Shown: one piece after another, positions 16,126-17,504 of the stretch
Position numbering within the stretch: position 1 is the first letter of the stretch
How the letters are laid out: every line of letters begins with the position of its first letter
Assembly (NCBI GenBank): GCA_017542245.1
Contig: JAFXXN010000144.1
Span: forward strand, 21,586-85,585
Source: Lachnospiraceae bacterium
GTDB lineage: Bacteria > Bacillota > Clostridia > Lachnospirales > Lachnospiraceae
Direction of reading: 5' to 3'
DNA: 64,000 nt
Position numbers and translations under genes: made by a program
Notes under the pieces: generated by a model
The model's database searches: none
The model's input: only the letters and a program-made list of their open reading frames with translations
Told to the model about the DNA's origin: nothing

Positions 16126-16194
16126 GGTGACAGGGATGGTTTTCTGTCACCATTTTTTTATGCTCTGGCAACGGAGAACCATCCCCTGTCGCCA
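16126..16194 (+). terminator. terminator plus second family B palindrome
   Basis: GGTGACAG (16126-16133) pairs with CTGTCACC (16144-16151), followed by ATTTTTTT; the loop contains a diverged GGGATGGTTTT core. A second palindrome of the same family in the opposite sense follows at 16167-16194 (core GAGAACCATCCCC). The back-to-back pair separates the thioesterase from the Lrp gene. Confidence 0.75.
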
Positions 16195-16222
16195 CCCCGG
16201 TTTCGGTTGTAAACCGGGGGTA

Positions 16223-16252
16223 TTGACAATTTGGGATTTTGGTCGATATAAT
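16223..16252 (+). promoter_or_regulatory. strong promoter for Lrp/alpha-CTD operon
   Basis: TTGACA (16223-16228) and TATAAT (16247-16252), both perfect consensus boxes, are separated by 18 bases. The leader to the TTG start is about 65 bases and contains ACTTCATCTGATTTTAGTCAGATG, an ATCTGA/TCAGAT inverted repeat. Confidence 0.8.
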
Positions 16253-16321
16253 ATATGCATCAGAGTCGACACTGATTTTTGTTACTTCATCTGATTTTAG
16301 TCAGATGGGAACGGGGGTATC

Positions 16322-16822
16322 TTGGACGGAACGGATGAAAAAATTCTGGAACTGATGAAGGGCAATGCAAGGATAAGCTATCAGAAGCTTGGAGAAGAGC
16401 TTGGGATGTCAAGAGTGGCTGCAAGAAAAAGGGTGCAGAAGCTAAAAGCAGAAGGTGTTATCAGAGGATACAATACCTGCATTTATAACGGTGAAATTAC
16501 ATTTGAGTATGATATTTATACTTTGCCGGATAAGCTTAATGAAGTACTTGCATATCTTACTAAAAGAACTGCTTATATCAGACAGATTTTTACAACCAAC
16601 AGGGCTAACCATATCCATATGGTAGCCGTATCCGATTCCTACGATAACCTCAATTACCTGTCAAAGATGATTTTGAAGAGCTGCGGTAAGATGATTGAAG
16701 ATATTCAGGTATTTGCCGTACGTAAGGTCATCAAAGATGTTTACGGAGGTGTCGGTAATGAACAAAGAGCAGAGTCAGACAATAATGGATGTAATGGACA
16801 GCTTGGTGGGAGTGGAACTTAA
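16322..16822 (+). CDS. Lrp/AsnC-family transcription regulator
   Basis: The 166-residue protein has the AsnC-type N-terminal winged helix: DEKILELMKGNARISYQKLGEELGMSRVAARKRVQKLKAEGVIRGY fits the family line almost residue for residue. The C-terminal part (about 60-145) has the alternating strands and helices of a RAM-like sensor but lacks a clear glycine-rich ligand motif. The start is TTG 16322, preceded by GAACGGGGG. The last 65 bases overlap the next gene, and the tail reading through that overlap (NEQRAESDNNGCNGQL) looks non-conserved. Co-expression with the alpha-CTD-like protein is very likely. Confidence 0.85.
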   Translation: MDGTDEKILELMKGNARISYQKLGEELGMSRVAARKRVQKLKAEGVIRGYNTCIYNGEITFEYDIYTLPDKLNEVLAYLTKRTAYIRQIFTTNRANHIHMVAVSDSYDNLNYLSKMILKSCGKMIEDIQVFAVRKVIKDVYGGVGNEQRAESDNNGCNGQLGGSGT

Positions 16823-17138
16823 GGAGAAGCGCGGAGGAAATTTCAGGTTCAGAATGTACATGACGAAGGAGATGCTTGATGCACCGATTGATGTGCTTTT
16901 TCTTAATGTAAGACCTTATCACTGCCTTATGAGGGCAGGATATAAAACTGTAGGTCAGGTAGTTAAAGCAGTAGCTTCTGAAGAAGGAATAGGCGGTCTC
17001 AGGAACTGCGGGAAAAAGAGTGTGCTTGAGATAAAAGAGCAGCTGTTTCTTTTCAACTATAACTGCATGAACGCTTCCAAAAGAGAAGCATATCTGCAGG
17101 AAGTAGTGCTTTTGAACACAATGCCAAGGGGTAGCTAA
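16758..17138 (+). CDS. stand-alone RNA polymerase alpha-CTD-like protein
   Basis: The 126-residue protein contains an alpha C-terminal domain: DVLFLNVRPYHCLMRAGYK (45-63) and LRNCGKKSVLEIKEQL (81-96). Compared with E. coli RpoA, the DNA-contact Arg265 is kept as Arg52, Cys269 as Cys56, and Gly296/Lys298/Ser299/Glu302 as Gly85/Lys87/Ser88/Glu91; Asn268 is His55. There is no alpha N-terminal assembly domain, so it cannot replace RpoA. About 40 residues precede and 30 follow the domain. ATG 16758 follows GGAGGT by seven bases. It overlaps the Lrp-type regulator by 65 bases. It may bind UP-like DNA or bridge the regulator to a promoter; that is inference. A GGGTAGC/GCTACCC hairpin follows the stop without a T tract. 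Confidence 0.8.
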   Translation: MNKEQSQTIMDVMDSLVGVELKEKRGGNFRFRMYMTKEMLDAPIDVLFLNVRPYHCLMRAGYKTVGQVVKAVASEEGIGGLRNCGKKSVLEIKEQLFLFNYNCMNASKREAYLQEVVLLNTMPRGS

Positions 17139-17279
17139 GAAGTGCTACCCGGTTAGACAAAACCATATAATTTTCGTTGTATTAGACAGAGACAGGAGTT
17201 CGACTGAACTGTTAAAGGAAGAAGGCAAGGGTCTGTATGTTGATGAACGTGTATAATAAAAATGAAAGAAGGTGCTTTA

Positions 17280-17504
17280 ATGAAAAAGTATGTCTCGCTT
17301 GATAAGCGAAGCAAGAAAGCTCAGAAGGAGTATTATTCTGAGAGGCGGGTAACATGGGGCGAGCTTAATCCCGTTACAAGAAGCGTACCGAGCGGAAAGA
17401 GCTACAACAGAAAGAAAGATAAGCAGGAACTGCGAAGAACTGATAGAGATTCCAGAGACGGATTCGAAGTCAGTTCTTTTTTTATGATAAATTTTCTATT
17501 ATGA
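17280..17504 (+). CDS. short basic protein running through a terminator
   Basis: ATG 17280 follows AAGAAGGTG; it is better placed than ATG 17262. The 74-residue product starts MKKYVSLDKRSKKAQKEYY and continues with WGELNPVTRSVPSGKSYNRKK, a pattern I recognise from short conserved clostridial proteins of unknown function. The last 20 codons read through a terminator hairpin (17436-17483), so either the tail is not conserved or the hairpin doubles as coding sequence. The gene lies 140 bases after the alpha-CTD-like gene. Confidence 0.6.
   Translation: MKKYVSLDKRSKKAQKEYYSERRVTWGELNPVTRSVPSGKSYNRKKDKQELRRTDRDSRDGFEVSSFFMINFLL
17436..17483 (+). terminator. terminator overlapping the end of the short basic gene
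   Basis: AGAACTGA (17436-17443) pairs with TCAGTTCT (17470-17477), followed by seven Ts. The stem lies inside the reading frame of the preceding gene. Confidence 0.7.

Follow-up and report, generated by a model that had tools for sequence, protein, structure and literature searches.

A co-conserved gene pair encoding an Lrp-type regulator and a free RNA polymerase alpha-CTD in Lachnospiraceae

RESULTS

An Lrp-type regulator gene overlaps a gene for a free alpha-CTD

Two overlapping genes on the plus strand of the window (the whole 64,000-nucleotide stretch of a Lachnospiraceae contig analyzed here) encode an Lrp/AsnC-type regulator and, following it, a free C-terminal domain of the RNA polymerase alpha subunit (alpha-CTD), and sequence comparison across genomes confirms that this pair is real and conserved. 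The pair and its surroundings comprise the following features:

16126..16151, plus strand: terminator-like hairpin and T run, 3' of the upstream acyl-ACP thioesterase gene (Pfam match)
16199..16215, plus strand: element P2, palindrome GGTTTCGGTTGTAAACC, symmetric at 5 of 7 half-site positions, 7 bp 5' of the -35 box, candidate Lrp operator
16223..16252, plus strand: sigma-70 type promoter, TTGACA-18-TATAAT, from a promoter scan (12/12 matches)
16259..16276, plus strand: element P1, ATCAG-AGTCGACA-CTGAT, beginning at the predicted +1
16322..16822, plus strand: Lrp/AsnC-type regulator, 166 aa, TTG start, helix-turn-helix (HTH) and RAM-like domain, with a tail predicted to be disordered
16745..16749, plus strand: GGAGG Shine-Dalgarno sequence of the alpha-CTD gene, inside the Lrp motif D-V-Y-G-G
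16758..17138, plus strand: free alpha-CTD protein, 126 aa, ATG start, without an assembly domain

Because the terminator-like hairpin lies between the thioesterase gene and the pair, we consider the pair to be its own transcription unit. The coordinates and residue assignments given in an earlier sequence-only reading of this locus proved correct, including the 65-nt overlap between the two genes, and the promoter that it called consensus matches at all 12 box positions in the promoter scan. Neither P1 and P2 nor the ribosome-binding-site account of the overlap formed part of that reading. The same reading saw no assembly domain in the second protein, which agrees with its length of 126 aa and with PF03118 (score above the curated cutoff) as its sole Pfam match; the N- and C-terminal extensions of this protein are common to its relatives. 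Elsewhere in the window, the leader contains a perfect 7-bp inverted repeat (CATCTGA-N6-TCAGATG, positions 16288-16307) directly 5' of the Lrp start, and a small gene without a Pfam match (positions 17262-17504) has four matches in its own genome and a match in 6 of the 24 genomes of the genus.

Membership of the pair in a larger conserved operon was rejected: when reading frames were clustered over 19 neighborhoods, only the two pair genes were widely common (18/19 and 15/19), with the next cluster, among the genes listed, reaching 6/19. The thioesterase neighbor is present in 3 of 24 genomes of the genus. No clean empty site was found in the genus comparison, and in G006, which is without the pair, a different gene follows the thioesterase.

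The pair is sporadic in the family and co-conserved

Within the genus, a pair-type alpha-CTD occurs in 4 of 24 genomes, of which G000, G010, and G013 have the Lrp gene and G022 holds a remnant, its Lrp frame gone except for the tail and its alpha-CTD truncated. Across a sample of 397 genomes of the family, a free alpha-CTD is present in at least 15, and an Lrp gene lies directly upstream at 14 of these 15 loci, among the matches listed, so that the co-conservation of the two genes, which the sequence-only reading named as a check, is borne out. The count of 15 is made up of 13 loci with E values of ≤5.2e-16 plus those of G128 and G261, whose scores are within the reach of RpoA and which were accepted because an Lrp gene is present; accepting these two for their neighbor biases the proportion toward 14/15, and without both it is 12/13. 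The upstream Lrp gene of G261 runs off the contig edge, and the alpha-CTD gene of G272 has no detectable Lrp partner. Genus g66 carries the pair in 2 of 7 genomes. An order-level sample of 392 genomes adds G684 (locus L148), where the Lrp gene is again present; in this sample no pair-type alpha-CTD was detected outside the family, all five pair-type matches lying inside it, and the best match outside the family (67.8 bits) is situated in a 321-codon frame of RpoA size.

Identity to the window proteins is as low as 26% for the alpha-CTD and 25% for the Lrp protein, and such low identities, together with the patchy presence and the decayed copies, suggest that the pair is old, sporadic, and sometimes lost. 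Rates of substitution come from a single measurable comparison, that of L033 and L034, since dS is near or past saturation in three others: the Lrp gene shows a dN of 0.11 and a dS of 0.89 (dN/dS of ~0.12), and the alpha-CTD gene shows a dN of 0.12 and a dS of 0.63 (dN/dS of ~0.19 outside the overlap). A mirror-tree correlation over 14 pairs (r of 0.647, with 4 of 5,000 permutations equally high) fits shared inheritance of the two sequences and is not proof of contact between the Lrp protein and the alpha-CTD.

The free alpha-CTD keeps most DNA-contact residues

The predicted structure of the domain is an alpha-CTD fold, as expected from the earlier reading. In the alpha-CTD, the 265 determinant contacts DNA, and E261 faces sigma. 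The 265 determinant is recognizable in the free alpha-CTDs: across 16 of them, the R265 position is R in 15 and K in 1, the N268 position is N in 13 and H in 3, G296 and E302 are kept in all 16, and the S299 position is S or T in all 16. K298 and the 287 determinant are not kept across these 16 proteins, and the E261 position is D or E in 15. By its sequence, the window copy is atypical, with His at the N268 position and Phe at the E261 position. The DNA-contact residues that are kept fit a detached module for DNA or promoter recognition and so lend partial support to the sequence-only reading, in which such a module might help or compete with RNA polymerase; the absence of K298 and of the 287 determinant and the atypical window copy weigh the other way. 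Two of the free alpha-CTDs are longer (L067 in G128, 163 aa, and L070 in G261, 183 aa); by eye, their C-terminal half resembles a second, degenerate alpha-CTD, and Pfam finds one.

Relative to the alpha-CTD of RpoA (PF03118), the free protein differs by the absence of an assembly domain, by its own FRMYM-type N-terminal extension and C-terminal helix, by a 287 determinant that is not kept, and by a separate tree branch. We rejected the idea that it is a broken piece of rpoA: its own genome has a separate RpoA-size match, 18 free proteins and 22 RpoA CTDs split on one branch (100/99, with a warning from the tool that long branches meet at that branch), and the only comparison that could be measured (L033/L034) gives a dN far lower than dS.

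The partner is an Lrp/AsnC-type protein with a tail predicted to be disordered

At its N terminus, the window Lrp protein has an AsnC-type winged HTH (PF13404, E value of 1.5e-12), a domain matched in 15 of 15 Lrp members at an E value of 0.01, and a RAM (alpha-beta) effector/oligomerization domain is found in the protein as well. The family profile matches Pyrococcus furiosus LrpA (1i1g) over positions 1-126 with an E value of 3.8e-24, and the predicted structure has a fold match to Lrp/AsnC regulators, a group that binds palindromic DNA as dimers or octamers. The combination of an AsnC-type HTH with a RAM-like domain is shared with P. furiosus LrpA, Bacillus subtilis LrpC, and Escherichia coli AsnC; the Lrp protein of the pair differs from these in that the Pfam AsnC_trans_reg ligand-binding domain is recognized in only 5 of 15 members, in having a constant partner gene, and in a tail, predicted to be disordered, that encodes the ribosome-binding site of this partner.

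This tail contains, at the end of the Lrp proteins, a K-D-V-Y-G-G motif that is nearly invariant. In 15 of 15 Lrp genes, the two glycine codons of the motif, in the general form D-[VLE]-[YD]-G-[GR], spell GGAGG; at L055 the protein reads Y-G-R and the message is still GGGAGG. Elsewhere in the same 15 genes, GGA accounts for 66 of 154 glycine codons. The start codon of the alpha-CTD gene follows GGAGG by 7 to 11 nt in 14 of the 15; for L060 the start chosen lies 61 nt beyond the Lrp stop, although an earlier ATG is nearer. In G684 (L148, outside the 15), GGAGG is kept, but the probable ATG lies farther downstream and has a ribosome-binding site of its own. The Lrp gene itself begins with TTG or GTG in 7 of 15 cases by our reading of the starts. 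The presence of GGAGG within this motif throughout the 15 genes makes the overlap look like translational coupling, for which the motif would be the signal.

A palindrome and an inverted repeat flank the core promoter

P2 is a 17-bp palindrome of the GGTTACGNNNCGTAACC type whose center lies at about -51 in general and at about -52 in the window. In 12 of 16 pair promoters, exactly 7 bp separate it from the -35 box; it is not clear in L062, L064, L067, and L148. When the upstream 34 bases were searched for their most symmetric 17-mer, this ended 7 bp before the -35 box in 11 of 12 loci; at L061, P2 has the same 7-bp offset as judged by eye, and at L058 its half-site symmetry is only 4/7. The 12 promoters with P2 at this offset, which were picked beforehand for having it, show a mean half-site symmetry of 5.5/7, versus 1.74 when the offset was applied to 693 other TTGs, and none of 20,000 resamples was as high. 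In random 34-mers, the best symmetry is ≥5 in 4,652 of 20,000 and ≥6 in 707 of 20,000, so that single P2 sites are not significant alone, and it is the fixed place and shared sequence of P2 that count.

P1 has the consensus ATCAG-AGTCGAC(A/G)-CTGAT, with AGTCGAC as its loop, and follows the -10 box by 5 to 9 nt. It is present at +1 in 13 of 16 pair promoters and absent from L061, L062, and L064; L148, which was found after P1 had been defined, carries it with a stem that is changed yet paired. Over seven distinct forms, both sides have changed in 4 of 5 stem pairs (2 of 500 shuffles), and 91.4% of the alignment cells pair. None of 500 shuffles reached the covariation score, whereas further pair types are no more numerous than in shuffled alignments (232/500), and the outermost stem pair is broken in 3 of the 7 forms. 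This alignment leaves out L056, with its one-base insertion, and includes one row from the second G126 promoter, which is not a pair promoter. RNA folding of 11 segments, of which that of L060 did not include P1, places the stem in the predicted fold of 8 of the 10 segments containing P1, the exceptions being L058 and L059. The L055 stem is weak alone (-3.6 kcal/mol, weaker than most shuffles), and the stems of L033 and L065 are extended. An Rfam scan returned two microRNA models at chance level. From its sequence, P1 may be either a DNA palindrome or a 5' RNA hairpin.

The composite promoter is largely confined to the pair

Exact P1 occurs in 7 of 397 genomes of the family, all of them carriers, and each time at the pair; it is missing from 8 of the 15 carriers of this sample, and G134 has a site with one mismatch. 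In G159, exact P1 also occurs, together with P2, in a gene-less relic of the pair promoter region (L141, 6712-6850). P2-like sites, searched with ≤1 mismatch in 18 pair-carrying genomes, are not enriched genome-wide, numbering 49 versus 79 for the reversed control. All 49 were inspected, and the full composite (P2, 7 bp, TTG, -10) is restricted to the pairs, the G159 relic, and a single further promoter in G126; a TTG at 7 bp without a fitting -10 is found at L133/L211 (G013), at L201 (G253), and on the far side of L126. No wider regulon is visible among these 49 sites; the pattern used fails to recognize the promoters of the pair in G267, G338, G128, and the window, so that targets in such genomes would be missed. 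The G126 promoter (L143, 2673-3250), of pair design and with a P1-like repeat, is just upstream of the pair and precedes two small open reading frames of about 51 and 56 codons by eye, one of them His rich and membrane-like.

DISCUSSION

The sequences themselves show the two genes as a co-conserved pair, the signal for coupling, the elements of the promoter, a low dN/dS in one comparison, and, by prediction, both folds. On this basis we tentatively put forward, with somewhat less than even confidence, that the pair is a self-regulated two-protein regulator cassette in which the free alpha-CTD works with that of the polymerase or displaces it. The Lrp-type protein would most likely bind P2, centered near -51 in the promoter of the pair itself, and may also bind the inverted repeat P1 at +1; P1 and P2 differ in sequence, so one protein may not bind both. 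The free alpha-CTD, whose translation from the shared message would be coupled to that of the Lrp gene, would bind the DNA minor groove beside the Lrp protein. The polymerase's own alpha-CTD docks upstream at about -51, and the free domain would thus occupy or hand over that site and in this way adjust promoter output by feedback. Of the two modes we favor displacement, which would amount to negative feedback; the assignment of the elements to the proteins, the sign of the effect, and any contact between the two proteins are inferred.

It is also possible, if doubtful, that the alpha-CTD acts in trans, the regulator bringing its own detachable copy of the promoter-gripping domain of the polymerase that replaces or blocks the upstream-element contact at chosen promoters, within a self-regulating cassette whose message would begin with a dedicated hairpin or palindrome (loop AGUCGAC) found almost only 5' of the pair.

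A part as coactivator of a wider regulon, with the Lrp protein recruiting the free alpha-CTD, which in turn would bridge to sigma or DNA at many promoters, appears rather unlikely to us. The extra promoter of the same design (P2, -35, -10, and P1-like repeat) upstream of the pair in G126 would suit such a part, as would the fact that the P2 pattern overlooks the pair promoters in G267, G338, G128, and the window, but the full composite is confined to pairs, this G126 promoter, and the G159 relic among the 49 P2-like sites, and these are not enriched over the control (49 versus 79).

Nor do we think it likely that the pair is a toxin-antitoxin-like module in which the Lrp protein is the DNA-binding antitoxin and autoregulator and the free alpha-CTD acts as a toxin that competes with RNA polymerase and so disrupts transcription. 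The architecture of two small overlapping genes behind a self-contained region of conserved, operator-like elements fits the type II toxin-antitoxin pattern (autoregulation being putative), as does the sporadic spread (4/24 genomes in the genus, one a remnant; at least 15/397 in the family; and 2/7 in genus g66); in addition, the neighborhoods otherwise share little, and decayed copies exist in the form of the G022 remnant and the gene-less G159 promoter relic. The pair differs from type II systems, however, in that its translation signals favor the second gene and are wrong for an excess of antitoxin (TTG or GTG starts in 7/15 first genes and GGAGG 7 to 11 nt ahead of the start in 14/15 second genes), and in that the alpha-CTD protein has no match in PADLOC or PHROGs, where the Lrp protein has weak HTH matches. 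The pair-type protein was not found in phage and plasmid collections, the alpha-CTD gene of G272 is without a detectable partner, and we know of no toxicity of the pair.

Carriage as phage or plasmid cargo was rejected, as the tblastn matches, found in 6 phage and 8 plasmid records, never span more than 48% of the query, with 6 of the 8 plasmid matches falling under annotated alpha-subunit genes and the phage records being unannotated. A viral scan gave partial matches at 5 loci, and the one inspected is a sigma-alpha-CTD fusion. The single viral contig with exact P1 (L180) was taken as chance because the element lies inside a long frame, with no pair in the 1.7 kb of sequence covered.

Finally, it seems quite improbable that the genes act alone and merely share a message, with P1 serving as a 5' RNA hairpin for stability or translation and not as an operator. 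The covarying stem of P1, its nearly fixed and asymmetric loop, the extended stems of L033 and L065, and the one-base insertion in L056 are all compatible with a hairpin, but the two genes stay together across proteins with identities as low as 25 to 26%, and the stem is weak in L055 and missing from the predicted folds of L058 and L059.

Other proteins combine an alpha-CTD with further domains. Fusions of sigma-70 region 4 with an alpha-CTD occur in Clostridia metagenome-assembled genomes and in a 258-kb phage contig (L087, 5317-6201; L088, 5317-6201, assigned from its near-identity to the L087 sequence; and L175, 4365-5267, on the phage contig), L087 also having an HTH_3 domain. The fusions of L087 and L175 resemble the pair in possessing an alpha-CTD that is joined to a promoter-recognition part and lacks an assembly domain, and differ from it in being one chain with a sigma-type HTH, whereas the pair consists of two genes, one for an Lrp regulator. 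By eye, L047, L053, and L090, from the same genus and from an uncultured Clostridia contig, encode long AAA+ type ATPases with an internal alpha-CTD-like stretch.

A literature search of limited coverage retrieved no description of a pair of Lrp protein and free alpha-CTD. The available part of one source gives the meeting point of Crp with the alpha-CTD at class I sites, and that part does not mention this pair (PMC1784095). Each part of the pair belongs to a known family, and within the same limited coverage we found no described match for the combination, the coupling signal, or the promoter elements.

In its familiar role, the alpha-CTD is tethered to RNA polymerase. An alpha-CTD that is conserved, inherited separately, and produced jointly with an Lrp regulator would imply that this domain serves bacteria as a free transcription factor. 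With the pair, one could ask directly whether contacts to the upstream element can be provided or blocked in trans, and the putative coupling signal within a protein motif, along with the pair-specific element at +1, would provide clean experimental handles.
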